DNA of 64,000 nt from Pseudoxanthomonas sp. F37 (lineage in GTDB: Bacteria > Pseudomonadota > Gammaproteobacteria > Xanthomonadales > Xanthomonadaceae): NCBI RefSeq assembly GCF_022965755.1, contig NZ_CP095187.1, forward strand, positions 2,294,001-2,358,000, written 5' to 3'. The notes below the pieces were generated by a model that saw nothing but the letters and a program-made list of their open reading frames with translations, was not told the DNA's origin and ran no database searches. A program made the position numbers and the translations under genes. How positions within the stretch are numbered: the stretch's first letter is position 1; every line of letters begins with the position of its first letter. This document shows, in pieces, positions 7,629 through 61,915 of the stretch.

Positions 7629-7640
7629 GCCGGACTCTCA

Positions 7641-7659
7641 AATGCGAACTATTCTCATT
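7641..7659 (-). promoter_or_regulatory. Putative Fur box upstream of feoA
   Basis: Read on the minus strand the 19 bases are AATGAGAATAGTTCGCATT, an imperfect palindrome close to the usual Fur consensus (AATGATAATNATTATCATT-like, with the AATGAGAAT half site exact in form). It sits between feoA and the divergent liuC, 13 bases from the feoA start, which fits Fe(II)-dependent repression of the iron-uptake genes. An effect on liuC is possible but not shown. Confidence 0.65.
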
Positions 7660-7736
7660 GTAGCATCGCCGCAGTGCAGGAAGGCTGCAACGCAGCGTGC
7701 CGGTATCATTCGGCGACTTCGCAAGGAACGGCTGCA

Positions 7737-8537: not shown

Positions 8538-8541
8538 GACG

Positions 8542-10934: not shown

Positions 10935-10941
10935 GGGCCCC

Positions 10942-15037: not shown

Positions 15038-15051
15038 ACGGCGTGATCCCT

Positions 15052-15196
15052 GTAGGAGCGACGTGAGTCGCAACCGGAGACCTCGAACTCCCCACGTCCT
15101 CTCCCGTGGATTGCAAAGCTTCACCTCGCAGGCGCAGCGCGCCGACCCGTCACCCAGCCTGCCCTGGTGTGCGGTCGCGAATCACGTCGCTCCTAC
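15052..15196 (+). repeat. GTAG-type palindromic repeat pair 1
   Basis: GTAGGAGCGACGTGAGTCGC at 15052 and its near reverse complement at 15173-15196 (ending CGTCGCTCCTAC) enclose about 97 bases between the signalling gene and the SDR gene. Each unit is a short hairpin beginning GTAG. It matches the general form of the GTAG (SMAG/REP) repeats of Stenotrophomonas and relatives. Confidence 0.75.
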
Positions 15197-15231
15197 ACCT
15201 GGTTCATGGCACCGCCGCCTCCGCCATCGCG

Positions 15232-15237
15232 TAAAAT
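15232..15237 (+). promoter_or_regulatory. Candidate -10 element for SDR gene
   Basis: TAAAAT lies 28 bases before the chosen SDR start, with a purine start point a few bases on. It is the only AT-rich hexamer in this GC-rich spacer. No clear -35 is seen. Confidence 0.4.
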
Positions 15238-15265
15238 GCCGGCTTTTCCGCAGCAGGTCCGCCGC

Positions 15266-16036: not shown

Positions 16037-16040
16037 ACCC

Positions 16041-16114
16041 GTAGGAGCGGGCCATGCCCGCGATGCTTTCCGCCGCGATGCCAGAAGAGCATCGCGGGCA
16101 TGGCCCGCTCCTAC
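16041..16114 (+). repeat. GTAG-type palindromic repeat pair 2
   Basis: A head-to-head dimer: GTAGGAGCGGGCCATGCCCG at 16041 and its inverse ending CCCGCTCCTAC at 16114, with the sub-element GCGATGC/GCATCGC. The arms pair over about 30 bases. It fills the space between the SDR gene and efpL and could act as a terminator or mRNA stabiliser. Confidence 0.8.
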
Positions 16115-16147
16115 GACCCTCTTCTTCCCCTGTCCACGGTCATCACC

Positions 16148-16714
16148 ATGAAAGCTTTCGAGATCAAGAAGGGCAACGTCGTCGAACACAACGGCGGCGT
16201 GTACCAGATCCGCGACATCGAGCGCAGCTCGCCGCAGGGCCGCGGCGGCAACGTGCGCTTCCGTTTCATCATGTACAGCGTGCCGGGCGGCAACAAGCTG
16301 GACGCCAGCTTCGACGCCGACGACAGCCTGACCGAAGTGGAACTGCTGCGCCGCCAGGCCACGTATTCGTACAAGGATGGCGATGCGTTCGTGTTCCTGG
16401 ACGATGAGGACTACACGCCGTACACGCTGGACGCGAACGTCATCGGCGACGACGCCGGTTACATTACCGACGGCCTGAGCGGCTGCTACGTGCAGGTGAT
16501 CGACGAACTGCCGGTCGCGCTGCAGCTTCCGCAGCACGTGACCCTGGAAGTGGTGGAAACGCCGCCGGAACTGAAGGGCGGTACCGCCACCAAGCGGCCG
16601 AAGCCGGCCAGGCTCAGCACCGGCCTGGAAATCATGGTGCCGGAGTACATCACCACCGGCGAGCGCATCCTGGTCAACACGACCACGGGCGAATTCGGCG
16701 GCCGCGCCGACTGA
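16148..16714 (+). CDS. efpL: Elongation factor P-like protein EfpL (YeiP)
   Basis: 188 residues from ATG 16148; the upstream in-frame ATG at 16100 lies in the palindromic repeat. Three EF-P-type domains: a KOW-like N domain (residues 1-65), and two OB domains, ending with the conserved [24 protein letters not shown] tail of the EF-P family. Loop between strands 3 and 4 reads SSPQGRGGN, so the tip has arginine (Arg32) rather than the modified lysine or rhamnosylated arginine of EF-P and the loop is extended, as in EfpL/YeiP. It relieves ribosome stalling at difficult motifs such as polyproline without needing modification. Single gene, own transcription likely. Confidence 0.92.
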
Positions 16715-44643: not shown

Positions 44644-44720
<77 letters not shown>

Positions 44721-44732
44721 ACAAAGAAGTGC

Positions 44733-44768
44733 AAAAAGGCTGGAAATCTCAGGATTTCCGGCCTTTTT
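44733..44768 (+). terminator. Terminator downstream of tRNA-Pro
   Basis: AAAAAGGCTGGAAATC-TCAG-GATTTCCGGCCTTTTTTT: an 11 or more base-pair stem with a T-G wobble, flanked by an A run and seven T. Confidence 0.92.
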
Positions 44769-44904
44769 TTGTGCGCCCGGCCCTTGCCCCCTGTTCCGAG
44801 CAGAAGGCGGGCCGAGGCCGTACGGCCTCAACCGGATGCCGGCGCCCTGCTCCCTGGTGAGGGGGAAGGAGAAGAACGCTGGCGGGTCAACTCACGTCCG
44901 TGGC

Positions 44905-45305
44905 CGCAGCGTTGGACGGGGAACGGGGGTTCCACCCCGAAATCACGGACGGTTGTAGGAAGGCCGAGACCTTCTGGTCCTGCCTGGCGACTCTTCGCCG
45001 CATGCTGGGGTTGTGGAACCACTCGATGCATGCGAACACATCAGCCCTTGCTGCACCGAGTGTCGGGGAGCCGCCACTTCGGAACCGGCGGCCCCGGTCG
45101 GCGTGCAGGATCACCGGATGCGTGCCCGGCTGTCCTCGTGCGACTCACGGATGCGGTCAAGCAAGCGCTGATTGTCGAACTGGCGGGCACGGGGCGGGCG
45201 CTTGCTCCAGCCGCAATGGCCACTGGCCGACACCCGCAGGCAACGGCACATCCGTCGAACCGGCACCTCATCGCGACAACGTTCGATCGCCTGATACCTC
45301 AGGAT
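44905..45305 (-). pseudogene. Degraded IS3-family transposase OrfB remnant
   Basis: Minus-strand pieces: [20 protein letters not shown], then [12 protein letters not shown] (about 45302-45150), an OrfB N-terminal part; then after a junction near 45120 [13 protein letters not shown] (IS3 HxDxG-type core) and ARADVFACIEWFHNPSM, the OrfB C-terminal element (about 45120-44940). The central catalytic region with the first Asp is deleted and the frame is shifted at the junction, so no functional transposase remains. No terminal inverted repeat could be identified. It marks past mobile-element activity next to the tRNA gene. Confidence 0.72.
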
Positions 45306-45718
45306 GCTCCCGCCTGAATCGGCCTTCGTGCAAGCGTCCGCGATAAAAGGGGATGAACCCCGCGCGCGTAGCCCAACGATGAGCCGTGCATAAACCCCAC
45401 ACCGGAGTTTACACAATTTAACTCCAGCGAACTTTTCGCAACAAATGGGCGATCTACGATCGTCGGCGTCGCGCCCACGTCCGCAACCCGGGCAGGCCGA
45501 ATGCATCCCGGCATTACCGATCCCTTTCTATCAGGTGAGTCCTTCACCCGATGGCAGCCCACCCTGTGGTGCAGGAAGCCTCAGTCGACGGTCCCCACAG
45601 CAGTGCGGGTGGCCGATGCTCGCCAGCGAGCAGCTCCGCTGGCGCTCTGCCCTTTGGCCCGCCCGATACAAGGTGGCCGCGATTATGACGTTGCTCCACC
45701 CCCACAAACTACAAGAAC
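45306..45718. other. Gene-free spacer with a CpxR-like box
   Basis: No convincing gene. The DNA is less GC-biased than the flanks, for example around 45400-45440. It contains one candidate response-regulator site (45408-45422). Short frames here carry no family signature and no signal peptide could be found in frame with the next gene; a stop at 45686-45688 closes the frame upstream of its ATG. Confidence 0.6.
45408..45422 (-). promoter_or_regulatory. CpxR-like box 1
   Basis: On the minus strand GTTAA-ATTGT-GTAAA, the same two pentamers and spacing as the site before the response-regulator gene at 49546-49560 (GTTAA-ATTAG-GTAAA). It is about 300 bases before the TolC-like gene, in the spacer upstream of it. 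CpxR binds GTAAA-N5-GTAAA in either orientation. Confidence 0.6.
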
Positions 45719-46861
45719 ATGGTCCAGAAGCCAGCGCACGCGATTGCAGATGATCACTTCACCCCCCGTGGCGCTGCGTTGAGATCCTCACGCGCCAATG
45801 ACGATGCCCGACGTCACGTCTTCAGCAAGTACGAAACCCACTGGTACCTCGGCGCCATCGACCAGGAGCCCGCTGACGAAGGCACGCTGGCCAGCTGGTG
45901 GAGCCTCATGGGGCTGCCCAATCTTCCTCCTCTTGTCGATGTCCTGATTCGACAGTCCATTCAACTGTCCACGTCACATCTTCAATTGCGTCGCTCATTG
46001 ACGGCACTTCCCAGTCCTGCCTCGCAGGACGACGGTGATGACACCGCGGCCTATCCATGGATAGCGCGCATGGCGCTCTACCAGAACGAGCGCCTGTCCA
46101 TCATCGCTTCGTTCGCTTCTTGCTATGTGGCCTGCCTTCTAGTTTCCGAGCGAATGCAAAATGTTGTCCGTGGCATGGGGCAACTCCAGGCCTTCATTGA
46201 CGGCCTGGCGGACGGGGGAGCGGTGAAGTCGGCCCCGGCCGGCGTCATCACGCAGATGCACCAACTCCACACCAGGCACGAGTCGTTGGCGTCCGCCAGA
46301 GACGAAGCGCTGCTTTCTCTTGCCGAATTCCTCAGTGAACCCTTTGATGTCACCTATGGCCGGGTGCTTCTCGACCGATTGCCTCACGTGCCGGCGCCCA
46401 AGCCTGCCATTGGCACGCCTATGGACATGATCAACCGCCGGCCCGACCTGATCGCGCTGAATCATGCTCTTCAGATGGCCCAAAGCACGTCCGCCCCTGA
46501 TGGCGAGGCGGTATGCGCCGCGTCGCTTGACTATGACCGTGCCCGACTGGGCGCGCGTACCGAAGTTGAGCGCGCCATCCGGCGCATGCGGGCCCACAAC
46601 AATGCGCTTCCGGCTATCCGCGAATGTGTCCTGGTCGGCGAGCGTTCCATCAGGCAACTCGAGGACGAAGTGCTCCGCGGCCGGGCTCCGCTCGAGTCAT
46701 TGGCACACGCCCACTACGAGCTGTGCATACGTCGCGACCACGAGATCGAATGCCGCGGCAGCACGTACCTCGCATCGATCGACATCTATCGCGCCATCGG
46801 AGGCGGATGGCCCAGCGAAGGCTATCTGAATGCAGATCAGCCGCTGGAGCCCGTCAAGTGA
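45719..46861 (+). CDS. Divergent TolC/OMF-like protein without evident signal peptide
   Basis: 380 residues. Recognised by scattered outer-membrane efflux features: ASWWSLMGLPNLPPLVD near residue 60 (compare WWTLFGDPALDALV in NodT-type OMFs), a long heptad region, VPAPKPAIGTPMDMINRRPDLIALNHAL near residue 240 (compare the RRPD motif) and IYRAIGGGW near the C terminus. Compared with typical OMFs (about 470) the segments for the two membrane beta-strand hairpins are short or absent, and no N-terminal signal or lipobox is visible. It may be a periplasmic alpha-barrel relic, a soluble variant or a decayed gene with unusual regulation. Its stop overlaps the BamA-like start (GTGA). Confidence 0.6.
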   Translation: MVQKPAHAIADDHFTPRGAALRSSRANDDARRHVFSKYETHWYLGAIDQEPADEGTLASWWSLMGLPNLPPLVDVLIRQSIQLSTSHLQLRRSLTALPSPASQDDGDDTAAYPWIARMALYQNERLSIIASFASCYVACLLVSERMQNVVRGMGQLQAFIDGLADGGAVKSAPAGVITQMHQLHTRHESLASARDEALLSLAEFLSEPFDVTYGRVLLDRLPHVPAPKPAIGTPMDMINRRPDLIALNHALQMAQSTSAPDGEAVCAASLDYDRARLGARTEVERAIRRMRAHNNALPAIRECVLVGERSIRQLEDEVLRGRAPLESLAHAHYELCIRRDHEIECRGSTYLASIDIYRAIGGGWPSEGYLNADQPLEPVK

Positions 46862-49317
46862 TTCCTGTTCGTCGCAAGTCCCTGCTTCCCATCCTCCTCA
46901 TCCCCGCGTTCCACAGTCCGCTTGAAGCACAGGAACAACCGGCCACCCGCGCCGAAACGTTCGTTGCCGCCGACATCCGCGTGGAGGGACTTCAACGCAT
47001 CGCAATGGGCACGGTCCTGACGTATCTCCCCATCGAGCGCGGCGATCTGGTGACGTCTTCGGGGCTCGCCGAGTCTTTGCGCTCCCTGTACAAGACGGGG
47101 TTCTTCGAGGACGTCCGGCTCGATCGCCAAGGCGACATCCTGGTGGTCACGGTCACCGAGCGTCCGGCGGTCAACAAGCTCACGCTGGATGGAAACAAGG
47201 ACATCAAGACCGAGGACCTGCTCATCGGATTGAAAGACATAGGATTGTCCGAGGGCGATACGTTCAACCGGCTGAGCCTGGACCGGGTGACGCAGGAGCT
47301 GGTGCGCCAGTACAACAATCGCGGCAAGTACACCGTCGAGATCACGCCCACCGTCAGCCCGCTGGACCGAAACCGTGTCGACGTGGCCATCAAGGTAGAG
47401 GAAGGCAAGGCGGCCAAGATCAGGCACGTCAACGTGGTGGGCGCAGAGAAGTTCGAGACCGAGGACCTGCTGGAGAACTGGGAGTCCAAGGAGACCAGCT
47501 GGCTGTCCTGGTACCGTCGCGACGACCAGTATTCCAAGGAGAAGCTGTCCGGCGACATGGAGCGCCTGAACTCCTGGTACCTGGACCGCGGCTACGTGGA
47601 CTTCAACATCGACTCCACCCAGGTATCGATCAGTCCCGACAAGCGCGACATGTTCATCACCGCCGGCATCAGCGAAGGCGAGCAGTACAAGATCTCCGAC
47701 GTGAAGGTCACCGGCGACACGGTGCTGCCGAAGGAGGAGATCGAGAAGCTGGTGATCGTCAAGCCCGAGCAGACGTTCTCGCGCATCCTGCTGGAAATGA
47801 CGTCCGACTCCATCACCGCCACGCTGGGCAACATCGGCCACGCGTTCGCGCAGGTGAACCCCATCCCGACCATCGACCGCGAGAACCGCACCGTCGCCAT
47901 CAACCTGCAGGTGGTGCCGGGCCCGCGCGTCAACGTGCGCCGGATCGTCTTCAAGGGCAACACGCGCACGTCCGACGAAGTGATGCGCCGCGAGATGCGC
48001 CAGTTCGAGGGCAGCTGGTTCTCGCAGGTCGCCGTGGACCGCTCGCGCGTGCGCCTGCGCCGCCTGGGATTCTTCGAGACTGTCGATGCAGAGACGTCAC
48101 CCGTTCCTGGCACCGACGATCAGGTCGATGTCGTCTTCACTGTAAAGGAGACCACCTCGGGCAGCTTCATGTTCGGCCTCGGATACTCGCAGACCGACGG
48201 CCTGACCACCTCCTTCGAGCTCTCCCAGAACAACTTCACAGGAAGCGGCAATCGGATTGCGGTTTCGGCCAAGCGTAACAGCTACCAGAACGCCTATTCG
48301 TTCTCCTACACCAATCCGTACTTCACGGACGAGGGGCTGGCGCTGGGCTACCAGGCCACCTGGAGCGAGATCGACTACTCCGATTACAACGCCGCTCAGT
48401 ACAACACCACCAATACAGCGTTCCAGAGCGTGTTCGGCCTTCCCATCAGCGAGAACGACTCCGTTTCGATGTCGCTCGGCATAGACAGCAAGCAGGTCAC
48501 GGTCTATGAGAGCTACACGCCGCAAGCCATCATCGACTACATCGACGCGGTGGGTCAGCGCACCTTCCATGCGTGGCGCTCCGAACTCGGTTGGGCGCGC
48601 GATACGCGCAATGACTACTTCATGCCGACCAGCGGCATGTATCAGCGCGTGTCAGCCGACATCGCCCTGCCCGGTTCCACGGTCGAGTACTTCAAGATCA
48701 ACTACGACCTGTCCAAGTACTGGCCGCTTGCACCATGGCTGGTCATGCTCACGCGCGCAGAGCTGGGCTACGGCGACAGCTACGGCGCTGACATCAAGCG
48801 CTACATCTGCCGCGCCAACGGCTCCGACCCCCAGGTATCCGGCCAGACCATCTCGGACGGTTCTTCCGGCCCAGGGGGTGTCTGTGGGGCCGACGCCACC
48901 CTGGAGCGCACCCTGGTCGCCAGCGGCCTGCCATTCTTCGAGAACTTCTATGCCGGCGGCACCCGCTCGATCCGGGGTTTCGAGGACAACAGCCTTGGCC
49001 CCCGATCGGAAGTGTCCAGTTCCTACCCGGATGGTCAGCCACTTGGCGGGTCGTTCAAGACCATCGGATCTGTCGAACTGCTGTTCCCCAAATTGTTCGA
49101 CAGCAATGCCGCACGAGTCTCGGCCTTCCTGGATATAGGCAACGTGTTCGACGGCTACAAGTCGTTCGACTCCAAGGAACTCAGGGCATCGACGGGCATA
49201 GCGTTGCTGTGGCGCGCGCCCGTGGGCCCCATCTCCATCAGCTATTCCTTTCCTGTTCGCAAGGAAGAGGGCGACAAGCTTGAACGCCTGCAGTTCTCCT
49301 TCGGCGGGGGCTTCTGA
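46858..49317 (+). CDS. BamA-type Omp85 protein (second paralogue)
   Basis: 819 residues from GTG 46858, overlapping the upstream stop. A short signal sequence (SLLPILLIPAFHSPLEAQ) is followed by five POTRA-like units (about 30-405) and a 16-strand barrel (about 420-819) with the loop-6 motif IRGFEDN near residue 705 and a C-terminal FSFGGGF. Length and domain order match BamA rather than TamA or FhaC. BamA is essential and normally encoded near lpxD elsewhere, so this is likely an extra copy, perhaps dedicated to a partner from this locus. Codon choice changes near residues 195 and 400 (see findings). Confidence 0.87.
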   Translation: MIPVRRKSLLPILLIPAFHSPLEAQEQPATRAETFVAADIRVEGLQRIAMGTVLTYLPIERGDLVTSSGLAESLRSLYKTGFFEDVRLDRQGDILVVTVTERPAVNKLTLDGNKDIKTEDLLIGLKDIGLSEGDTFNRLSLDRVTQELVRQYNNRGKYTVEITPTVSPLDRNRVDVAIKVEEGKAAKIRHVNVVGAEKFETEDLLENWESKETSWLSWYRRDDQYSKEKLSGDMERLNSWYLDRGYVDFNIDSTQVSISPDKRDMFITAGISEGEQYKISDVKVTGDTVLPKEEIEKLVIVKPEQTFSRILLEMTSDSITATLGNIGHAFAQVNPIPTIDRENRTVAINLQVVPGPRVNVRRIVFKGNTRTSDEVMRREMRQFEGSWFSQVAVDRSRVRLRRLGFFETVDAETSPVPGTDDQVDVVFTVKETTSGSFMFGLGYSQTDGLTTSFELSQNNFTGSGNRIAVSAKRNSYQNAYSFSYTNPYFTDEGLALGYQATWSEIDYSDYNAAQYNTTNTAFQSVFGLPISENDSVSMSLGIDSKQVTVYESYTPQAIIDYIDAVGQRTFHAWRSELGWARDTRNDYFMPTSGMYQRVSADIALPGSTVEYFKINYDLSKYWPLAPWLVMLTRAELGYGDSYGADIKRYICRANGSDPQVSGQTISDGSSGPGGVCGADATLERTLVASGLPFFENFYAGGTRSIRGFEDNSLGPRSEVSSSYPDGQPLGGSFKTIGSVELLFPKLFDSNAARVSAFLDIGNVFDGYKSFDSKELRASTGIALLWRAPVGPISISYSFPVRKEEGDKLERLQFSFGGGF

Positions 49318-49545
49318 GAACACGCTGGTCGAGCAACGCCCACACGCCCTCAATCGGCTCAGGACGCCAGGTCGCTTCGCGCCACGGTTTCCGCTGGCGT
49401 TGGCGCATGCCGTGCGAACAGGCACGCTGCATGACTTGTCGCCCATCGGTCTCACCGTTTGGCGTCCATCGAGGGCTCCGGTGCGGAGGGCGGCATAGGG
49501 GCAAAGTAAAGTGTTACTTGATTTCATCAGTCGCCGTAACCTCGC

Positions 49546-49560
49546 GTTAAATTAGGTAAA
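49546..49560 (+). promoter_or_regulatory. CpxR-like box 2 and nearby inverted repeat
   Basis: GTTAA-ATTAG-GTAAA lies 52 bases before the response-regulator start. Upstream at 49504-49519 is AAGTAA-AGTG-TTACTT, a perfect inverted repeat. This 294-base spacer is the AT-richest of the region and probably holds the promoter of the two-component genes. Confidence 0.6.
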
Positions 49561-49611
49561 TATTGCTGCCTGGAGCGCGCTTCTGAAGGCGTTTGCCCGG
49601 ATACTTTGACC

Positions 49612-50307
49612 ATGACCAAGGTGCTTCTCGTCGACGACGATGCCGATCTCGCCTCGCTTCTATCTCAGTACTTACTGAGAGAGGGCTTTGAGGCGACCAT
49701 GGCCCATGATGGCGAGGCAGGCGTGTCCGAGGCCATATCGGGCCACTATGCGCTCGTGGTTCTCGACATCATGATGCCCAAGCTCTCCGGCATCGATGCG
49801 CTGCGGTGCATCCGCGAGAAAAGCAATGTCCCTGTCCTGATGCTTACCGCCCGGGGCGACGACATCGACCGCATTGTCGGCCTGAACATGGGCGCCGACG
49901 ATTATGTCCCCAAACCATGCACGCCCGCGGAGCTGGTGGCACGTATTCGCGCCATTCTCCGCCGCACCGAACGCATCCAGATGACGACCGCAGGATCGGC
50001 ACCCAAGCCATTGCACGCCGGCGATCTGACGCTCTTCCCTGGCAGCCGGAGCGCCACCTGGCGCGGCGAGGCACTCGAGCTGACCGGCACGGAATTCAGC
50101 CTCCTGGAGGTCCTTGTCCGCAACTCCGGCCGACTGGTCAACCGGCACGACATTTCGGTGCAGGCGTTCGACCGTCCGCTGACCCGCTTCGACCGTCGCA
50201 TCGATGTGCACATCAGCAGCATTCGGCAGAAGTTGGGCGTGCGGGTCGACGGACAACCCTGGATCAAAAGTGTCCGCGGGCTGGGCTATCAGCTCCTGGA
50301 GGACTGA
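49612..50307 (+). CDS. OmpR-family response regulator (CpxR-like)
   Basis: 231 residues from ATG 49612 (an in-frame TTG two codons earlier is unlikely). Receiver domain with acidic pocket DDDAD, phosphoacceptor Asp in VLDIMMPKLSG (about residue 52), and Lys in YVPKPCTPAEL. C-terminal winged helix (about 130-231) ends VDGQPWIKSVRGLGYQLLED. The sequence is of the CpxR type. It is coupled to the kinase by TGATG. Confidence 0.9.
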   Translation: MTKVLLVDDDADLASLLSQYLLREGFEATMAHDGEAGVSEAISGHYALVVLDIMMPKLSGIDALRCIREKSNVPVLMLTARGDDIDRIVGLNMGADDYVPKPCTPAELVARIRAILRRTERIQMTTAGSAPKPLHAGDLTLFPGSRSATWRGEALELTGTEFSLLEVLVRNSGRLVNRHDISVQAFDRPLTRFDRRIDVHISSIRQKLGVRVDGQPWIKSVRGLGYQLLED

Positions 50308-51362
50308 TGTTCGAACGGATACCGAGCCGCCTGTTCTGGAAGCTCCTTCTTGCGCTGCTGATAAGCGGGGCGCTTTCGATCGTCGGGGCTTACATCATTC
50401 TCCGGCTCAGTGGGCACACGCCCCCGCCCGCAAACGAGCACCTGCGCATCGGCATCGTCCCGCTTCTTCCATTTGCACCCTTGCTGTCGATCACCCTGGC
50501 TGTCGTCGTGACCAGCGCCGGATTGGCCTGGTATCTGTCGCGCCCTCTCGAACGCCTGAAATGGGCGCTGCGCCGTGCTGCGGAAGGGCGGCTGGACACC
50601 CGCGTCCACGCGCTCATGAGTGGTCGTCGCGACGAAATCGTCGACTTGGCCGAGGACTTCGACCGCATGGCGACGCGACTTCAACAACTTCAGGAGTCGC
50701 GTCGCATCCTGCTGCATGACATTTCTCACGAATTGCGATCCCCGCTCAGCAGGATTCAGGCCGCCATCGGCGTGCTAGAGCAAGACCCATCCCAGACAGG
50801 AATCATGATCGATCGCATCACCAGGGAGAGCGAGCGCCTCGATACGTTGATCGAAGAGCTACTCACCTTGCACCGGATCGAGGATCTGACAGCCAACATG
50901 GTCCGCGAGTCGGTTGACGTGATCGAGGTGCTGCATGCGGTGGCTGCAGACGCAGCCTTCGAGGCCCGCGCATCGGCTCGCACGGTGTCCATCGATGCTC
51001 CGGGCCGCTTCGTCATGCCCGCCAACGCGGACCTGATCTACCGCGCTTTCGAGAATGCTGTTCGAAATGCGGTGAAGTTCAGCCCACCACAGGGAGACGT
51101 CGAAATTGTCGCCGTGGTGGCGCCCGACGGAACGTGGCTCGACGTCTGCATCCTGGACCGCGGCCCGGGCGTGAGCGAAGAGATGCTCGAAACCATTTTC
51201 CATCCCTTCACCCGCGCCGGCGGTAGCGAGTCCGTCGCCGGGTCGGGACTGGGGTTGGCCATCACGCGTCGCGCCGTGGAAATGCATGGAGGCCAGGTGT
51301 CGGCGGCGCGCCGTCTGGGAGGCGGTCTTAGTGTCCGCTTCTCGATCCCCCTGTCCAGCTGA
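50307..51362 (+). CDS. Sensor histidine kinase (CpxA-like, short periplasmic loop)
   Basis: 351 residues from ATG 50307. Two transmembrane helices (about 11-33 and 50-76) with only about 16 residues between them, then HAMP (about 75-130), HisKA (phospho-His in LHDISHELRSPLSR) and HATPase (ENAVRNAVKFS, LDRGPGVSEEM, GSGLGLAITRRAV). CpxA has a large periplasmic domain; this one has almost none, so it likely senses the membrane itself or a membrane protein partner. It would phosphorylate the regulator encoded upstream. Confidence 0.9.
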   Translation: MFERIPSRLFWKLLLALLISGALSIVGAYIILRLSGHTPPPANEHLRIGIVPLLPFAPLLSITLAVVVTSAGLAWYLSRPLERLKWALRRAAEGRLDTRVHALMSGRRDEIVDLAEDFDRMATRLQQLQESRRILLHDISHELRSPLSRIQAAIGVLEQDPSQTGIMIDRITRESERLDTLIEELLTLHRIEDLTANMVRESVDVIEVLHAVAADAAFEARASARTVSIDAPGRFVMPANADLIYRAFENAVRNAVKFSPPQGDVEIVAVVAPDGTWLDVCILDRGPGVSEEMLETIFHPFTRAGGSESVAGSGLGLAITRRAVEMHGGQVSAARRLGGGLSVRFSIPLSS

Positions 51363-51396
51363 ATGCGGAGGGAGACTTCGAACGGGTGGGTGGCGC

Positions 51397-51888
51397 TCAG
51401 TCCATTGTTCCCGGTTGAGGCTCCACGCCCATGGATACCAGGCACCGCCCGAGCAACGAGATGAGCTTGTCCTGCTCCTGGTCGCTCAGCCCCGATGTGG
51501 CGCCCTCCACAACGCTTTGGGCGATCGCACTACCCCGCGCCACAAGGTCCAATCCCTTTTCGGAGACTTCCGTCGTGAGAACCCGCCCCAAGTAAGGATG
51601 CGGCTTCCTCTCAACCAAACCTTCGCGCTCCAGCCGCACGAGGATCTGGTGCATGGTCTGAGGTGATACAGCCGCCATGCGGGCCAGGTCCGCGTTCGAC
51701 GCCCCAGGATTGTCGGCCAGCATCAGTAGCGCGAGAGCCTGTGGGCGTGTGATCTCAATGCCTCTCTCCCGCAGTTGCTCCTCGATACCCGCCGTCAACG
51801 CCATGTGCAGGCCTTTAAGAAGCATGGCGAGCCGATGGGCCTTGGAGTTCTTCAGGGCTTTGAGCGCCTTGGGCAGATCTTTCTTCAT
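51397..51888 (-). CDS. MarR-family transcriptional regulator
   Basis: 163 residues from ATG 51888, chosen for GGAG 8 bases before it; ATG 51906 is possible. Winged helix: ALLMLADNPGASNADLARMAAVSPQTMHQILVRLEREGLVERKPHPYLGRVLTTEVSEKG (about 55-115). Divergent from the membrane-fusion gene, the MexR/MarR arrangement, and likely represses both by binding the operator in between. No cysteine pair of the MexR redox type is visible. Confidence 0.87.
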   Translation of the reverse strand: MKKDLPKALKALKNSKAHRLAMLLKGLHMALTAGIEEQLRERGIEITRPQALALLMLADNPGASNADLARMAAVSPQTMHQILVRLEREGLVERKPHPYLGRVLTTEVSEKGLDLVARGSAIAQSVVEGATSGLSDQEQDKLISLLGRCLVSMGVEPQPGTMD

Positions 51889-51917
51889 GTCTTGTTCTCC
51901 AACCATTCCGGCAACTT

Positions 51918-51957
51918 ATCAGCATGCTGATATTTTGTCAGCTTACTGATAGGATGC
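51918..51957. promoter_or_regulatory. Putative MarR operator
   Basis: ATCAGCATGCTGAT (51918-51931) is a perfect 14-base palindrome. Related half-sites (TCAG-CTTA-CTGA at 51938-51949 and GGATGCTGAT at 51952-51961) follow, overlapping the promoter region of the efflux operon and that of the regulator. Confidence 0.72.
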
Positions 51958-51966
51958 TGATTCCTC

Positions 51967-53061
51967 ATGACCAACGCACTGCGGCGCGCCCTTCCCTTTC
52001 TCTGTGCTCTGGCACTGACGGCGTGTCACGACACGGAGACCTCCGCACCCAGTGCCAGTCTGACGGTGACGATGGCCACGCCTCAGGAGCGAACCGTCGT
52101 CCGTGACGTCGCCGCCTCTGGCGCCGTGGCAGCATGGGAGGAAGTCGCCGTAGGGGTGGAGTTGTCCGGCCTGCGCGTGGCTTATGTCGAGGTTGAAGTC
52201 GGCAGTACCGTCAACAAGGGAGACGTGCTGTTGCGGGTCGACTCACGCACCATGGACTCGCAGTTGGCCCAGGCCCAGGCTTCGCTGGCCGAGGCCAGGA
52301 CCAATCTGGATACGGCGCAGCGCAAAGCACGGCGCATGCGCCAGCTGGCCGACGAGAAGATGGTGTCGCTGCAGGACGCAGAGGAGGCCGAGGCCTCCCG
52401 CAACAACGCCAACGCCCGCGTCAATACCGCCCTGGCCAGCCTCGATGCCGCCCAGGTCCAGCGAGACTTCACGGTGGTTCGTGCGCCTGTTGACGGCGTG
52501 GTATCGGCCCGAAGCGTGCAACCAGGCCAGGTGGTCTCCGCCGGCACGGAACTCATCCGCCTCATCCGCGATGGCCGCCTGGAATGGCGCGCCGAACTCC
52601 CCCAGGCCGATCTGCTGCGCGTCACCCCCGGCGCGCGCGTTCGGGTCCAGTCCCCGACCGGCGACGTCGAAGGCACGATCCGCCGGGTGTCGCCGTCACT
52701 GACCCCCGAGACACGGACGGGCACAATCTTTGCTGATCTCCCAGAACCAGGCCCGTTGCGCGCGGGCGTGTTTGCGCAGGGGCGCATCGCCTTGGCGCAA
52801 TCCAAGGCCCTTCTGGTCCCCGATGAGGCGGTCGTGCGTCGTGACGGGCGCACCTATGTATTTACGGTCGACCAGGACAACCGGTGCCGCCAGCGCAACA
52901 TCGAGGTGGGCGGTAGTTTTGGATCCGATGTCGAAGTCCTCAAGGGGCTCGATGCCGGCGAACGGGTGGTGGCTCAAGGCGCGGGCTTCCTCGGCGATGG
53001 CGATCTGGTGCGGGTGGTGGCGCAGGCCGGACAGGCGCCGGCTGCCGAGGCTGGCGAATGA
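51967..53061 (+). CDS. RND efflux membrane-fusion lipoprotein
   Basis: 364 residues. Lipoprotein signal with lipobox LTAC (Cys about residue 20). Barrel-sandwich/lipoyl half (GAVAAWEEVAVGVELSGLRVA), helical hairpin (about 90-155, QLAQAQASLAEARTNLDTAQRKA), and C-terminal beta-barrel (about 215-285). It links the inner-membrane pump to an outer-membrane factor. Ends ATGA on the RND start. Confidence 0.9.
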   Translation: MTNALRRALPFLCALALTACHDTETSAPSASLTVTMATPQERTVVRDVAASGAVAAWEEVAVGVELSGLRVAYVEVEVGSTVNKGDVLLRVDSRTMDSQLAQAQASLAEARTNLDTAQRKARRMRQLADEKMVSLQDAEEAEASRNNANARVNTALASLDAAQVQRDFTVVRAPVDGVVSARSVQPGQVVSAGTELIRLIRDGRLEWRAELPQADLLRVTPGARVRVQSPTGDVEGTIRRVSPSLTPETRTGTIFADLPEPGPLRAGVFAQGRIALAQSKALLVPDEAVVRRDGRTYVFTVDQDNRCRQRNIEVGGSFGSDVEVLKGLDAGERVVAQGAGFLGDGDLVRVVAQAGQAPAAEAGE

Positions 53062-56000
53062 ACATTTCCGCGTGGTCCATCCGCAAGCCATTGCCGGCCG
53101 TCCTGGCCTTCATCCTGCTGACCGCCGCGGGACTGTATGCATTTCGCCAGCTCGCGATCTCCAAATTCCCCGACCTGACCGTTCCCACGGTCACCGTGAC
53201 GGTCAATCTGCCGGGCGCCACCCCGAGCACGCTCGAAACCCAGGTCACCCGCAAGATCGAAGATGCCGTTGCCAGCATTGCGGATATCGATGATCTGACG
53301 TCCACCATCAATGAGGGCGTATCCACCACCGTGGTCGCATTCGATCTGGGGAAGAATGGCAACATCGCCAAGGACGAGGTGCGCGATGCGGTGGACCGGA
53401 TTCGCGTCGACCTCCCCAGCGAAATCGAAGCGCCGATCGTCTCGCTGGTCAATGTGGCCGGCGACGACATGATCACCTACGCCGTGACAGCGGATGGATG
53501 GAACGATGAAGAGCTCAGCTGGTTCATCGACAACGCGATCAACAAGCGTCTGTTCGGCATCGCCGGCGTCGGCGCGGTCAAGCGCGTGGGCGGCGTGGAT
53601 CGCGAGGTCCGCGTGGATCTTCGCCCCGAGGCCTTGCAGGGGTTCGGCGTCAGTCCCGCACAACTGTCCCAGCAACTGGCGAAAATACAGCAGGAACAGC
53701 CCGGCGGCCGCACCACCGTGGGCGGCAATGAGCAAGCAGTACGCACCCTGGCCACGGTCGATGATGCTTCGGACCTGACCGACTATCCGATCTTCGTGCC
53801 CGATGGCCGCAAAGTCCGCCTGTCGACCTTGGCCAGCGTCCATGACGGCCACGCAGAAGTCACGCAGCTGACCACCCTCGACGGCACGCCCGTGATCGGC
53901 TTCTCCGTCCAGCGCACCCTGGGCTCGAGCGAAGTCGATGTGGGCGACGCGGTGCGCGAAAGCATCGACGCCCTCCAGAAAGAGATGCCGCGCTTGCGCT
54001 TCGTGGAGGTTGCCTCCACCACGCCCGAGGCCGAAGCCTCCTACGAGTCCTCCATGCACATGCTGTACGAGGGTGCGCTCCTCGCCGTCGTGGTCGTGTT
54101 CTGGTTTCTTCGTGACTGGCGCGCGACGTTCATCTCCGCCGTCGCCCTGCCCTTGTCCATTATCCCGACGTTTGCCGTGATGTACTGGTTCGGGTTCAGC
54201 CTCAACATGATCACGCTCCTGGCGCTGGCCGTGGTCGTGGGCATCCTGGTGGATGACGCGATCGTCGAGGTGGAGAACATCGATCGCCACCTCGGGATGG
54301 GAAAAACCCCATTGGAAGCGTCACTGGAAGCAGCGGACGAAATCGGTACGGCGGTCATCGCCACGTCGTGCACGCTGGCCGCCGTCTTCATCCCTGTGGC
54401 GTTCATGCCAGGGATCCCCGGAAAGTTCTTCAAGGAATTTGGCTGGACCGCGGCGGCCGCGGTGCTCTTCTCCCTGCTGGTTGCCCGCCTCGTCACTCCC
54501 ATGATGGCCGCCTACATGCTCAAGCCCATGCCTGAGCACAAGGGCGACTCCAGGCTCATGACCTGGTATCTGGGATGGGCCGACCGCGCCCTGCGCCATC
54601 GCGGGCGCACGCTCTGGCTGGCTTTCTGGCTGTTCGTGGCCTCCATGGCCATCATCCCCTTGATCAAGATGACCTTCATCCCGGGTAGCGACGGCGTCCA
54701 AAGCTCGCTGATGGTGGAGCTGCCGCCGGGAAGCTCCCTGCAGTCCACTCAGAAGACGGCGGAAACCGCACGCGCACTGATCGCCGACATCCCGGAAATC
54801 GAACACATTTTCATCACCTCTGGCGCAGGCGGCAGCAGCGGTGGCCCCGGCGGCGCATCTGTGGCGGAGGTTCGCAAGGCGACATTGACCCTCCGCTGGA
54901 AGGACGACCGTGACCGCTCTCAGGCCGAACTGGAAGCCCAGGTACGGGACCGTCTCTCGGACCTCCCGGGCGTTCGCCTGAGCTTTCAAGGAGGCGAACC
55001 GGGACGGGCGACCTCCCTGGTGCTGGCAGGCGACGACCCCGTCAGGCTCGCAGAAGTCTCACGCGACGTGGAGCGCGAGATCCGCCAGTTGCCGGGCCTG
55101 GGCACCGTCAGTTCCTCAGCTGCACTGGTGCGTCCGGAACTGATTGTGCGGCCCGATGCGGCGAAAGCGTCCGATCTCGGCGTATCGACAGCCGAAATCG
55201 CCGCGGTGACGCGCGTGGCCACGCGCGGCGACTACGAGCAGTACCTGGCCAAGCTCAATCTGCCGGAGCGCCAGGTTCCCATCCGTGTCCAACTGCAGGA
55301 GTCCGCCCTGTCCGACCCCAGCCTGCTGGGCCAGTTGCGCGTCGCTACCGCGGCGGGCGCAAGCGTGCCGCTGTCCGCCATTGCGGATGTCACCACCGAA
55401 AGTGGTCCCTCGCAGATCGCGCGCTTCGACCGCCAACGCAACGTGACCATCACCGTGGACCTCAACGGGCAGCCGCTGGGTGACGTCGACAAGCAGATCA
55501 AGGCGCTGCCCTCGTTGCAGAACCTGCCAGAGGGTGTGCAGCTGCAAGCCACGGGCGACGCGGAGATCTTCGAAGAAATGTTCTCCGGCTTCGTTGTAGC
55601 CATGATCGCAGGCATCTTCTGTGTGTATGGCGTGCTGTTGCTGCTGTTCAACCATGCCAGCCAACCCTTGACCATCCTGGTCGCCGTTCCGCTGGCTGCA
55701 GGCGGCGCGTTCGGTGCGCTTCTTCTGACGGGGACGGACATCTCACTTCCGGTACTGATCGGTTTGATCCTGCTGATCGGCATTGCGGTGAAGAACTCCA
55801 TCCTGCTGGTCGACTATGCCGTCATCGCAGAGAAGACGCTGGGCTTGTCGAGACACGAAGCCCTGATCGATGCCTGCCACAAGCGGGCGCGCCCCGTGAT
55901 CATGACGACGCTGGCCATGGGTGCGGGCATGCTTCCGATTGCGCTTGGCTTCGTGGCCGACTCGAGCTTCCGTGCACCCATGGCCATCACCGTCATTGGC

Positions 56001-56117
56001 GGCCTGCTGACATCCACTGTGCTGAGCCTGGTGGTGGTGCCGGCCGCATTCACCCTGGTCGACGACGTGGAGACCTGGTTGCTTCGCAAGATGGGCCGCA
56101 GCGGACAGGCAGCATGA
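53058..56117 (+). CDS. RND-family efflux pump
   Basis: 1019 residues. Twelve helices with two periplasmic domains. Helix 4 has VVVGILVDDAIVEVEN, with the paired aspartates of the proton relay; helix 10 has GIAVKNSILLVDYA with the lysine. Length matches HAE-type multidrug pumps rather than heavy-metal ones. Uses proton motive force to export a compound through an outer-membrane channel. No canonical OMF gene follows, so it may use the host TolC or the TolC-like protein at 45.7 kb. Confidence 0.93.
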   Translation: MNISAWSIRKPLPAVLAFILLTAAGLYAFRQLAISKFPDLTVPTVTVTVNLPGATPSTLETQVTRKIEDAVASIADIDDLTSTINEGVSTTVVAFDLGKNGNIAKDEVRDAVDRIRVDLPSEIEAPIVSLVNVAGDDMITYAVTADGWNDEELSWFIDNAINKRLFGIAGVGAVKRVGGVDREVRVDLRPEALQGFGVSPAQLSQQLAKIQQEQPGGRTTVGGNEQAVRTLATVDDASDLTDYPIFVPDGRKVRLSTLASVHDGHAEVTQLTTLDGTPVIGFSVQRTLGSSEVDVGDAVRESIDALQKEMPRLRFVEVASTTPEAEASYESSMHMLYEGALLAVVVVFWFLRDWRATFISAVALPLSIIPTFAVMYWFGFSLNMITLLALAVVVGILVDDAIVEVENIDRHLGMGKTPLEASLEAADEIGTAVIATSCTLAAVFIPVAFMPGIPGKFFKEFGWTAAAAVLFSLLVARLVTPMMAAYMLKPMPEHKGDSRLMTWYLGWADRALRHRGRTLWLAFWLFVASMAIIPLIKMTFIPGSDGVQSSLMVELPPGSSLQSTQKTAETARALIADIPEIEHIFITSGAGGSSGGPGGASVAEVRKATLTLRWKDDRDRSQAELEAQVRDRLSDLPGVRLSFQGGEPGRATSLVLAGDDPVRLAEVSRDVEREIRQLPGLGTVSSSAALVRPELIVRPDAAKASDLGVSTAEIAAVTRVATRGDYEQYLAKLNLPERQVPIRVQLQESALSDPSLLGQLRVATAAGASVPLSAIADVTTESGPSQIARFDRQRNVTITVDLNGQPLGDVDKQIKALPSLQNLPEGVQLQATGDAEIFEEMFSGFVVAMIAGIFCVYGVLLLLFNHASQPLTILVAVPLAAGGAFGALLLTGTDISLPVLIGLILLIGIAVKNSILLVDYAVIAEKTLGLSRHEALIDACHKRARPVIMTTLAMGAGMLPIALGFVADSSFRAPMAITVIGGLLTSTVLSLVVVPAAFTLVDDVETWLLRKMGRSGQAA

Positions 56118-57976
56118 ACAGACCGCTCCATCTCGCACTGACCCTCCTGGTCGTGGTCGCGACACAGGGGTGCGCGGTCGTCTCCGTGAAGCGCCACACC
56201 GGGCAGGGGCCTGCCGGGGACACCAGGCCGTCCTCGACAGCCTACGGATCCGAGACAAATGCCACCCTCAGCATCGTCGGCTCCGCCTCGGACGAGTGCC
56301 GCGCGAATGTGGAATCCTGCGCCTCCCGCCTTCATCAGTTCGAAGGCGTCATCGGCGACCAGGTGCAATCGGCATTGTCCGAGGTGTATCTCGGCCGTGC
56401 CCTGTCCATGCGCTGCGCCGCTACCGACCCTGCGTGCGGAGCGGATCGCACGGACCTCCTGATCGAGAGCGCACGAAACGCCTACCTTTACCTGCTTTAC
56501 GGGAATGAGCATTCCGACCGCCGGGCGTATCGTCAGCGTCCCATTGACGTGCGGAACATCTACAACCGCGCGGTACAGGAAATCGCATTGGAGGCGTACC
56601 GGCTGGCGAAGGAAGCCGATCCCGGCACGCCCATCTCCATGGGACGGGGGGCCTCCATCAGTCTGGTCACGGGCTCGGCCAAGCGCATTCCCAGCGAGCT
56701 CATCCCTGCGTCCGAGCTGACCTTTGACGGACTTCGCAACACCTACACGCGTGACGGTTTCGGCGCCGATTTCGTGACCGTGACGGATCCACACGCGGAT
56801 GCGGACACGCCCTACCTGGAACTCAACTACCAACCCATCACCGTCGTCCTGGAGTTCGATGGCCGCGACGCCGATGAGGTACGGTCGTCACGACGGATGA
56901 GGCTGAGCTTGCGGGACGCGCGCCTGGAACCGGAGGTGCGGTTGGCCGGCCAAGGACTGCCCTTGGCCGGCAATTTTTCGGCCGCGTATGGTTTATGGCT
57001 GGCCCGGACGGATCTCATGAAACTCGGCATGTCGGGACTGCTGGGGCGTGGTGTAGAAGGCCAGGATGGGCCCCGCGTCATCATGTTGGAGCCCTACGAC
57101 CCCACGCGCCGCGTTCTGATCCTGGTGCATGGGTTGGCCAGCAGCCAGGAGGCATGGGTCAACGTGGCCAATGAGGTCATGGGAGACCCTGCGCTGAGAG
57201 AGAACTTCCAGATATGGCAAGTCGTCTACCCCACGCGCATCCCGATCCTGGTCAGCCGGGCCCGCATACAGAGCGCCCTCAACGAGACCTTCACCCGCTT
57301 CGACCCTGACCGCACCCATGTGGCGAGCCACCATGCCGTGCTGGTGGGACACAGCATGGGCGGTGTCATTTCCAGACTGATGGTGTCATCCAGCGACGAT
57401 CTACTTCTGGACCGTCTGATCGGCGACCTAGCCCCCGATCCTGCGCGCCTGCTTGCCAACGACACGCTGCGCACCTACGTCCAATGGACTCCCCTGCCGC
57501 CGGTCAGTCGCGCGGTCTTCATCGCCGCGCCCCATCGCGGCACTCCTTTCGTCGACCACCGCCTGCGCAATCTGTTCGGCCGGCTCATTCGGCTCCCCGT
57601 GGATCTCATGGAGAGCTTCAACGCCATTCTGCCGGCCGAAAGCATGGACCGCCAGGCCATCAAGTCGCTCGGGGTCCACCGACCGGACAACGGCGTGAAC
57701 GAGCTCGCAGAGGGCTCCCGCTTCATGCGGGCAACGGCAACACTGCCCATGGCACCCGCCCTCCCCTTTCACAGCATCATCGCGCGCAAGTCACAGGAGG
57801 GCCCGCTGGAGCAATCGAGCGACGGCCTGGTGCCCTATGCGAGCGCTCATCTGTCCGGGGCCCGGAGCGAGTCGGTGATCGTGTCCGGGCATAGCGTCCA
57901 GGAGATGCCGGAGGCCATCCTGGTCTTGCGGGAAATCCTGAGAACCCACCTTCGCGACGAACGCAAGGACGACTAG
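56114..57976 (+). CDS. Lipoprotein alpha/beta-hydrolase (PGAP1-like esterase/lipase fold)
   Basis: 620 residues starting on the ATGA overlap with the RND stop. Lipobox ATQGC (Cys about 20) predicts a lipidated envelope protein. The first 320 residues have no domain I recognise (a helical DLLIESARNAYLYLLYGNE segment). The C-terminal hydrolase has VHGLASS near 338, nucleophile elbow GHSMGG near 411 (Ser413), Asp in SDGLVPYASA near 570, and His in VSGHSVQEMP near 592, so the full triad is present. It may hydrolyse a lipid or ester that the pump exports or detects. The coupled position in an RND operon is uncommon. Confidence 0.82.
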   Translation: MNRPLHLALTLLVVVATQGCAVVSVKRHTGQGPAGDTRPSSTAYGSETNATLSIVGSASDECRANVESCASRLHQFEGVIGDQVQSALSEVYLGRALSMRCAATDPACGADRTDLLIESARNAYLYLLYGNEHSDRRAYRQRPIDVRNIYNRAVQEIALEAYRLAKEADPGTPISMGRGASISLVTGSAKRIPSELIPASELTFDGLRNTYTRDGFGADFVTVTDPHADADTPYLELNYQPITVVLEFDGRDADEVRSSRRMRLSLRDARLEPEVRLAGQGLPLAGNFSAAYGLWLARTDLMKLGMSGLLGRGVEGQDGPRVIMLEPYDPTRRVLILVHGLASSQEAWVNVANEVMGDPALRENFQIWQVVYPTRIPILVSRARIQSALNETFTRFDPDRTHVASHHAVLVGHSMGGVISRLMVSSSDDLLLDRLIGDLAPDPARLLANDTLRTYVQWTPLPPVSRAVFIAAPHRGTPFVDHRLRNLFGRLIRLPVDLMESFNAILPAESMDRQAIKSLGVHRPDNGVNELAEGSRFMRATATLPMAPALPFHSIIARKSQEGPLEQSSDGLVPYASAHLSGARSESVIVSGHSVQEMPEAILVLREILRTHLRDERKDD

Positions 57977-58098
57977 GACGCCCCAGGAAGCGGTACGCCG
58001 CGCCGGGCGCTCCAGCGCACGGCTCAGGCGTCCGCTACCAGGCCATTGTCGGGTACTCGGTCGTCATGGCCGGGATACGCCTCGGCCGGTCGCTGCCG

Positions 58099-58124
58099 CC
58101 GGTCCACTGGACCGGCCCGCTTTT
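58099..58124 (+). terminator. Candidate terminator hairpin
   Basis: CCGGTCC-ACT-GGACCGG followed by CCCGCTTTT. Between the convergent hydrolase and outer-membrane genes; the T run is short. Confidence 0.5.
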
Positions 58125-58159
58125 CGCAGACACTGCAAGCCTGATGAGGGAGCGGTCAA

Positions 58160-60637: not shown

Positions 60638-61915
60638 CTTTGCGCCCTGGTCGGCCCCCAGCCATCCCGGGTGGCGCACCTGTCCTTCGCCGCGCACCAC
60701 GAAGCGCTCCACGGTCAGCGCCTCCAGGCCCATGGGGCCATACGAATGCAGCCGGGTGGTCGAGATGCCGATTTCGGCGCCCAGCCCCAGTTCGCCGCCG
60801 TCCGAGAAGCGGGAGGACGCATTCACCATGACCACGGCCGAGCGCAGCGCATGCACGAACGCGTCCGCACGGGCCGGGTCGCGGGTGATGATCACCTCGG
60901 TATGGTCCGAGGTGTGGCGGCGGACGTGCGCGATGGCGGCGTCGAGGTCGTCGACCACGCCGATGGCGAGGACCAGGTCGAGGAATTCGGCGGCGAAGTC
61001 CTCTTCGGTCGCCGCCACCGCATCCGGTATCCACGCCCTGCCCGCCTCGTCCACGCGCAGTTCCACGCCGCGCGCGCGCAGCGCGGCCGCCGCCTTCGGC
61101 AGGAAGCCCGGCGCGATGTCGCGATGGACCAGCAAGGTCTCCAGTGCGTTGCAGGCCGACGGCCGGGAAACCTTGCCGTCCAACAGCAGCGCCAGCGCCA
61201 GGTCCTCGTCGGCGCCGGCATCCACGTACTGGTGGCAGACCCCCTTGTAATGCTTGATCACCGGCACGCGAGCGTGCTCGGCCACGAAGCGGATCAGTCC
61301 CTCGCCGCCGCGCGGGATCACCAGGTCGACGATGTCGCTGAGCTGGATCAGTTCCAGGATGGTCTCCCGGCGCAGGTCCTGGACCAGCGTCAGTACCGCC
61401 TCCGGCAGTCCTGCATCGCGCAGCGCACGCTTCAGCGATGCCGCGATGGCGGTGTTGGAATGGATCGCCTCCGAGCCGCCGCGCAGGATCACCGCGTTGC
61501 CGGCCTTCAGGCACAGTGCGGCGGCATCGGCCGTCACGTTCGGGCGCGCCTCGTAGATCATCGCGATCACGCCCAGCGGCACGCGCACGCGCTGCACGTG
61601 GATGCCGTTGGGGCGATCGTAGGCGCGGGTGACCTGGCCGACCGGGTCCGGCAGTTCCGCCACCTCGCGCACGGCAGCGGCGATGCCCTGCAGGCGCGCG
61701 GTGTCCAGGCGCAGGCGATCCAGCATGGCGCTCCCGATGCCTTTCGCCGAAGCTGCCTCGAGATCGCGCCCATTGGCGGCCAGGATCGCGGCTTCGTCGG
61801 CCGCCAGTGCGTCCGCCATCGCGCGCAGCAGGGCGTTCTTGGCTTCCGTGGGCAGGGACGCGATGGCGGCGGACGCGTCGCGGCATTGCAACGCAAGCGT
61901 CTTGATGTCGGTCAT
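60635..61915 (-). CDS. proA: Glutamate-5-semialdehyde dehydrogenase
   Basis: 426 residues from ATG 61915, with AAGGAG 7 bases upstream; the longer in-frame start at 61951 is less well placed. Aldehyde dehydrogenase fold with [42 protein letters not shown], and the catalytic cysteine in [15 protein letters not shown] near residue 260. Second step of proline synthesis. A repeat pair separates it from proB. Confidence 0.95.

Follow-up and report, generated by a model that had tools for sequence, protein, structure and literature searches.

A second BamA paired with an apparently barrel-less relative of efflux channels: a recurring, possibly mobile module in Pseudoxanthomonas sp. F37 and four related genomes

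We analyzed a 64,000-nucleotide stretch of the Pseudoxanthomonas sp. F37 chromosome (contig NZ_CP095187.1, positions 2,294,001 to 2,358,000; the window) in which eight neighboring genes had been read, from the sequence alone, as one integrated envelope locus. All eight open reading frames (ORFs) were found at or near the coordinates of this sequence-only reading, and Pfam bore out the families of all but TolCL. The genes form two units (Table 1). Unit A encodes TolCL, a derivative of outer-membrane factors (OMFs) of efflux systems, the BamA paralogue BamA2 (Omp85 domain and five POTRA stretches), an OmpR-type response regulator (RR) and a histidine kinase with HAMP/HisKA domains (HK). In unit B, the gene of a MarR regulator diverges from those of an HlyD-type periplasmic adaptor (MFP), an AcrB-type RND permease and an alpha/beta-hydrolase. 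The key finding is that unit A is a recurring module, in which the pairing of TolCL with a BamA gene is constant in five genomes. The surprise of the locus is TolCL with BamA2 and not the hydrolase: a conserved channel relative, apparently without a barrel and always paired with a BamA paralogue, was unexpected. We lean towards the view, with belief only just outweighing doubt, that unit A is a horizontally moving, self-regulated and stress-induced second-BamA module.

The distribution of the module was determined in 395 genomes of the family and 369 genomes sampled across the class, where the window's own genome (G000; 3.97 Mb, single contig) counts in both samples and some genomes of the class set are family members. 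Up to five candidates per genome were scored for TolCL, four for NodT and two for BamA. A profile search recovered full-length TolCL in 5 of the 395 family genomes (G000, G033, G035, G049 and G268), with 588-511 bits in the four genomes from which the profile was built and 219 bits in G268, which lay outside it. The next matches reached at most 45.6 bits and were ordinary outer-membrane factors; we take such factors to explain the remaining genomes among the 277 that matched the profile. No TolCL was seen in the other 368 genomes of the class-wide sample, and TolCL as a plasmid gene was rejected, there being no match in 72,556 plasmid records. At all five loci a BamA gene starts within the TolCL stop codon (GTGA or ATGA overlaps in four, TGATG in G268), the contig of G035 carrying only the first part of this BamA. 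Each of the five genomes has further BamA sequence elsewhere, and the resident gene lies in the lpx-dnaE neighborhood where this was looked at (genes named by eye). BamA matches at E≤1e-150 were present in 387 of the 395 family genomes, and two such matches in only six, namely the five TolCL genomes and G281. In the latter, an assembly of 550 contigs and 86% completeness, TolCL was not seen, and the double match may reflect fragmentation or a second BamA without TolCL.

The RR-HK pair adjoins TolCL-BamA2 in four of the five genomes, a count that covers pairs at the module; in three (G033, G049 and G268) a NodT-MFP-RND pump is present as well. In the window the order is TolCL-BamA2-RR-HK. In G049, RR-HK points away from NodT-MFP-RND-small-TolCL-BamA2, where small denotes a short gene described at the end of this text; G268 has the same layout, in which the small gene was not found. 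In G033, RR-HK points away from small-TolCL-BamA2-NodT-MFP-RND, and in G035, TolCL and the start of BamA2 lie at a contig end. The module NodT was detected (E≤1e-120) in 3 of the 395 genomes, all of them with TolCL-BamA2, and the module RNDs of these three are 79-84% identical to one another. The sequence-only reading had named homologues that are scattered in relatives and never co-occur as its refutation. This splits, since TolCL, BamA2 and RR-HK recur together (RR-HK at four of five loci, with a more distant pair in G033), while homologues of the remaining four were not detected at the other module loci.

The pump genes raise the possibility that BamA2 serves to assemble one outer-membrane client only, NodT as the channel that goes with the linked RND operon, an idea close to the special outer-membrane partner of the sequence-only reading. 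The NodT-MFP-RND operon stands beside TolCL-BamA2, with predicted regulator boxes in the same locus, in G033, G049 and G268; the restriction of the module NodT to these TolCL genomes fits as well, and TolC assembly uses TAM as a chaperone, according to the portion of PMC8809574 that was available. However, G000 and G035 have TolCL-BamA2 without the module NodT at the same threshold among four candidates per genome, and neither has a close module RND (best identities 51 and 29%). We regard a single-client role as unlikely. Of the special-partner claim, what stands is that TolCL lies directly 5' of BamA2 in all five TolCL genomes and the pump nearby in three; the window's own pump is not that of the module.

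BamA2 itself scored 810.9 bits against the NCBIfam equivalog TIGR03303 (cut-off 297.15), and the window protein carries the RGF motif of loop 6 as SIRGF. At the DNA level, BamA2 of G000 is 99-100% identical to the resident gene (BamA1) over residues 180-360 and 91% over residues 360-420, as against 79-83% over residues 60-180 and 71-80% in the barrel. Uninterrupted identical runs of 357 and 226 nt were found within residues 197-391, while the longest in 1000 shuffles measured 63 nt. The resulting conversion tract covers residues ∼181-404 and, by the usual POTRA spacing, spans POTRA3 to most of POTRA5. The resident BamA of G000 is 87-100% identical per 60-residue block to the BamA of P. japonensis. 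The two parts of the protein gave different trees. In a tree of the POTRA part, BamA2 of G000 groups with its host's BamA (support 100/99) and that of G033 shares a clade with its host's BamA (100/99 for the clade as a whole, with weak support within it), whereas in the barrel tree BamA2 stands apart from the host's BamA, with G049 and G268 together (100/100) and G033 and G035 together (96/86). The simplest reading of these alignments and trees is that gene conversion keeps the docking domains of BamA2 host-like and its barrel distinct, although a recent tract is proven in G000 only. An AlphaFold2 prediction of BamA2 with 17 other BamAs (pLDDT 53.4) was too poor for the mapping of loops.

A divergent barrel might also mean a changed surface, BamA2 replacing a BamA that serves as receptor for phages, contact toxins or lectin-like bacteriocins. 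As far as the accessible text of PMC6240691 goes, loop 6 of Pseudomonas BamA decides sensitivity to lectin-like bacteriocins, such bacteriocins are described in Xanthomonas too, where their receptor is unsettled, and some pseudomonads have a second bamA. The barrel of G000, which differs while the POTRAs are partly homogenized, would agree with this. In G049 and G268, however, BamA2 residues 480-600 are only 25-33% identical to BamA1, which is a long stretch and not single loops, and a changed surface leaves the linked pump and sensor unexplained. We consider it a quite improbable account of the module.

TolCL is related to efflux channels at a considerable distance. The NCBIfam outer_NodT model matched TolCL with E-values from 1.4e-6 (window) to 1.5e-14 (G049); the window protein reached 27.4 bits, against a cut-off of 210.05 for TIGR01845, and the Pfam family OEP was not found in it. 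In profile comparisons, TolCL matched the module NodT with a hhalign probability of 97.9 (E 4.8e-13) and OprM with an E-value of 1.9e-16. Like NodT/OprM factors (TIGR01845; OprM 6zre and 1wp1), TolCL keeps the WW, RRPD and GxGW motifs and aligns in three blocks, to OprM residues 40-72, 137-288 and 353-458. Unlike these factors it lacks two segments, a lipobox and an evident signal peptide. The OprM segments without counterpart, residues 73-136 and 289-352, are the stretches that we take to hold the two transmembrane hairpins. From the alignments, the protein earlier labeled "TolC-like" appears to be a NodT/OprM family homologue without both barrel hairpins and without an evident signal peptide. 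In none of the five TolCLs does hydropathy show a 15-residue stretch above 0.9 within the first 40 residues, and the open frame upstream of the gene is too short for a signal peptide in G000 (10 codons) and G033 (2 codons); it is longer in G049, G035 and G268 (68, 88 and 561 codons). The window protein has one inner hydrophobic segment (residues 126-144). Since a signal-like N-terminus and the hairpin segments are both missing, TolCL is probably soluble and cytosolic.

The same features would suit a channel gene in decay, kept solely because its reading frame, upstream of BamA2, couples the translation of the latter: the stop/start overlap is found at all five loci, the protein diverges fast, and hairpins and an evident export part are absent. 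Yet all five frames are open, 35 positions, including the three motifs, are invariant, and pairwise blastp E-values range from 3e-22 to 3e-67, with identities of 25-33% to the window protein across the whole alignment. Codon positions one and two are likewise more conserved than in a codon-shuffled control, with mean excesses of 0.228, 0.344 and 0.078 for the real sequences and 0.122, 0.200 and 0.025 for the control. These observations argue against a random remnant, and we consider mere decay about as improbable as a changed surface. Most likely, judging from its sequence, TolCL would be made in the cytosol in translational coupling with BamA2 and, as a soluble descendant of an efflux channel, have an accessory or regulatory role. 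A model of TolCL alone (AlphaFold2, all-helical, pLDDT 43.8) was too low in confidence for use. The wider suggestion that TolCL represents a new kind of protein, a channel minus barrel and export signal turned cytosolic partner or regulator of BamA2, within a portable system for bypassing BAM with POTRAs matched to the host by conversion and a foreign barrel, is tentative, and we would sooner doubt it than rely on it.

The two-component system (TCS) of the module, termed CpxRA-like in the sequence-only reading, deserves that name as a best match in NCBIfam, though both proteins fall below the curated cut-offs (RR 239.2 bits to CpxR, cut-off 341; HK 189.5 bits to CpxA, cut-off 486). The hydrophobic peaks of the window HK (residues 13-31 and 50-68) leave ∼18 residues between them, that is, a short periplasmic loop, and unlike CpxA the kinases of the window and G268 have no large periplasmic domain. 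The two pairs are 77% (RR) and 63% (HK) identical. The likeness to CpxRA extends to candidate binding sites. The CpxR motif is given as GTAAA-N5-6-GTAAA (PMC9600279), and boxes of the GTAAA-N5-GTAAA type occur at the module. The window has the strict pattern GTWAA-N5-GTWAA 5' of both TolCL and RR. In G049 and G268 this pattern lies in the RR-NodT interval, and in G033 in the interval from RR to the small gene; forms with GTAAG lie 5' of the small gene and TolCL in G049 and G268. The region of the window box GTTAAATTGTGTAAA resembles the pump (NodT) promoter region of the G049 and G268 modules, and in all three a TCTASGAT motif stands at the same distance of 30 nt (by-eye count). The pattern GTWAR-N5-GTAAA matched twice in the window but never in 100 shuffles, and 7 of its 10 matches in the five whole genomes fall in module loci. 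Boxes and an adjacent TCS are present in four of the five TolCL genomes, and binding of the regulator to the boxes is predicted. At the module locus of G035 an RR-HK pair of this type was not detected; the 563 bp 5' of TolCL contain no CpxR-type box there, and none of the 10 matches falls in this locus. Scans for sigma-70 promoters at both window boxes gave no match.

In the mechanism that we propose, an envelope or membrane cue would activate the kinase, and the CpxR-like regulator would bind the GTWAR-N5-GTAAA boxes, thereby inducing the operon that encodes it together with TolCL-BamA2 and also, in genomes where it is linked, the NodT-MFP-RND pump. The BAM complex of the host would then take up BamA2. 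Its POTRAs, kept host-like by gene conversion with the resident BamA, should fit the Bam lipoproteins of the host, and its distinct barrel would make it an insertase that differs from the resident one in lateral gate and surface. Blockage, attack or overload of the resident BamA would thus leave outer-membrane assembly running, with the pump lowering the level of the offending compound. BamA is essential and is a target of natural antibiotics, bacteriocins and phages. If the proposal is true, attack on BamA could be circumvented quite generally by a spare copy that is transferable and regulates itself, and a part of an essential machine would be swappable between species, its docking domains being converted and the new barrel kept. 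Movement of the module between genera is likewise suggested rather than seen.

Several observations weigh against this proposal. It is drawn from sequence, and no BamA-targeting agent has been linked to the locus. At its locus, G035 has neither the module TCS nor the pump. The G033 pair is distant from its G268 counterpart, with identities of only 45% for RR and 42% for HK, and its kinase has ∼135 residues between the hydrophobic segments. Allowing R at position 5 of the box pattern was a choice made with the sites already in view, the strict GTWAA form keeping five of the seven. Read backwards as a control, the pattern gave 21 matches in the five genomes, so that the location of the boxes counts and not their number. 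TolCL shows as little as 28-40% pairwise identity, and its codon-position signal is partly alignment bias. As to BamA2, no long run identical to BamA1, and hence no recent tract, was found in G033 and G049; the G049 protein is placed weakly in the POTRA tree, and that of G268 has RVF where the other copies have RGF. In G035, both BamA genes break off in the POTRA part of the assembly, and identity between them is limited to at most 20 readable codons of block 360-420, which is suggestive; equally suggestive is the 92% identity of this block in G268, where the assembly is chimeric. The two BamA matches of G268 are possibly pieces of one misassembled stretch.

The second BamA copy of G268 rests on pieces on contigs C1, C8 and C9 (L161, L181 and L182), where BamA2 and BamA1 are apparently joined as a chimera with ambiguous bases. 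An automated annotation of this chimera would misplace the pump operon beside lpxD. We rejected the lpxD-joined BamA as a real neighbor of the pump operon, given the N-containing chimeric stretch and the BamA pieces on the three contigs, which point to misassembly.

The nearest precedent, by analogy, is BamK of Klebsiella. As described in the excerpt of PMC13059784 available to us, the BaeSR system induces bamK, a near-consensus BaeR box lies 5' of the gene, BamK replaces BamA and resists the inhibitor PTB1-1, and BaeR also raises the Mdt efflux pump. The module described here likewise combines a BamA paralogue besides the resident BamA, an envelope TCS and a candidate upstream regulator box, with the difference that its activity is predicted from sequence. 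The excerpt mentions no OMF-like partner of BamK and no adjoining TCS, whereas here a TCS, BamA2 and a barrel-less OMF relative stand together, and in the window genome the POTRAs of the paralogue are partly converted by the host bamA. In these Lysobacteraceae, one unit houses the sensor together with the second BamA, and a pump joins them in three genomes. A BamA duplicate away from the resident gene is also known from Pseudomonas, where bamA2 is a recent duplicate at another site whose downstream genes are common to several species (Heinz and Lithgow 2014, PMC4104836). In the passages of that paper available to us, its upstream genes are not conserved and no pump, TCS or OMF-like partner is named; here TolCL lies upstream in all five cases. 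No description of the TolCL-BamA2 module was found in the literature searched, which excludes most subscription papers.

Table 1. Features of the island and its two gene units (positions within the window)
Feature	Position	Strand	Basis or remark
tRNA-Pro (CGG), left edge of the island	44644..44720	+	ARAGORN
Genomic island, ∼13.4 kb	44722..58159		Directly 3' of tRNA-Pro(CGG); sites of relatives and GC content
IS3-family (ISXc8-like) transposase gene remnant, two fragments, left end of island	44890..45329	-	tblastn
CpxR-type box GTTAAATTGTGTAAA, ∼300 bp 5' of TolCL	45408..45422	-	Pattern search
TolCL, OMF (NodT/OprM) derivative	45719..46861	+	Stop overlaps BamA2 start
BamA2, BamA paralogue, GTG start	46858..49317	+	Five POTRAs and Omp85 barrel
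CpxR-type box GTTAAATTAGGTAAA, 5' of RR	49546..49560	+	Pattern search
Response regulator (RR), OmpR family, nearest CpxR	49612..50307	+	Pfam, NCBIfam
Histidine kinase (HK), CpxA-like core	50307..51362	+	Pfam, NCBIfam
MarR-family regulator, unit B, divergent from MFP	51397..51906	-	Pfam
Perfect palindrome ATCAGCATGCTGAT between MarR and MFP	51918..51931		Candidate MarR operator (inferred)
Periplasmic adaptor MFP, HlyD type, unit B	51967..53061	+	Pfam
RND permease, AcrB type, unit B	53058..56117	+	Pfam, NCBIfam
Putative lipoprotein with C-terminal alpha/beta-hydrolase, unit B	56114..57976	+	Lipobox by eye; GHSMG at 412

Both units lie in a genomic island, recognized by its absence from the same site in close relatives. 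The corresponding tRNA-Pro site was fetched from seven relatives, and in none of them did the interior of the island find a match of at least 60 bases there. In G001 (L194) and G027 (L196), just 79 and 76 bp separate the tRNA-Pro end from the equivalent of window position 58160, and the flanks are 86-93% identical to those of the window; in four others, alignment to the window resumes only near 60,660-60,690. The site of G008 (L195) holds a different insert of ∼2.5 kb, and given this other insert the tRNA-Pro site may be an insertion hot spot. The GC content of the island is 0.634, compared with 0.693 and 0.694 in its flanks, with dips to 0.61-0.66 in 2-kb windows. The absence of the island at this site in all seven relatives, together with the recurrence of unit A in other genomes, indicates that the grouping of the genes is non-random. 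The tRNA-Pro gene and the IS3 remnant that the sequence-only reading had placed before the locus were both recovered, the latter as two fragments with best identities of 69 and 65% to Xanthomonas IS3-type (ISXc8-like) transposases (E 9e-23 and 4e-10; tblastn against plasmids), although a Pfam scan of the pieces gave no match. No integrase was detected by Pfam among the window ORFs scanned, and the compared edge stretches of the island share no word of at least 8 bases, so that no flanking direct repeat was seen.

Within the island, four of the seven junctions between the eight genes overlap (TolCL/BamA2, RR/HK, MFP/RND and RND/hydrolase), and TolCL, BamA2, RR and HK share the plus strand, BamA2 and RR being 294 bp apart. 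These overlaps do not mark a single operon, since MarR lies on the minus strand and diverges from MFP. This, and the confinement of CpxR-type boxes to unit A, led us to discard transcription of all eight genes as one operon. Nor is the pump of unit B that of the module, a candidate identity rejected on the 51% identity of the RNDs (36-38% for the MFPs). Its closest relative seen (RND 60%, MFP 49% identical) is located in G268, ∼390 kb from the module, and the hydrolase had no match in the 20 kb fetched around this RND.

Of 120 genomes, 23 have a homologue of the hydrolase, a count that takes in the window's own genome. We examined 16 of their neighborhoods, a part of all hits that comprises two each from G001 and G043 and, as one, a weaker copy in G000. 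In two of the 16 a distant RND gene adjoins: at L122 (G043, 6625-11552) it lies beside the hydrolase homologue, and at L123 (G019, 8855-16303) genes for an RND, a pyridine-nucleotide oxidoreductase, the hydrolase and the lipid A deacylase LpxR stand in a row. These two neighborhoods hint at a lipid-linked role for some of the hydrolases; the other 14 were without RND match. It is very improbable that the eight genes act as a single locus whose hydrolase prepares a lipid-like envelope substrate for the pump: the common island boundary, the RND-hydrolase overlap and the two neighborhoods just described speak for it, but MarR and the palindrome suggest separate control of unit B, where the pattern search of the window showed no CpxR-type box, and the unit B genes were not found with unit A at the other four module loci. 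The hydrolase is a member of unit B, and we saw nothing that ties it to BamA2.

Two further observations concern the surroundings of the module. The small gene 5' of TolCL in G033 (L111, 10945-11640) and G049 (L112, 8067-8918) encodes an apparently secreted protein with an SG[VR]WTPD motif; it matched no Pfam family, and the G049 copy had no plasmid match. The window's genome encodes a relative with 33% identity (C1:2989369). In G033, a second MFP-RND-RR-HK set lies a few kb away from the module (region of L163, 9526-16991, and L111, 187-1239), and the same surroundings contain a MipA-family gene and a probable MlaA (the latter assigned by eye).

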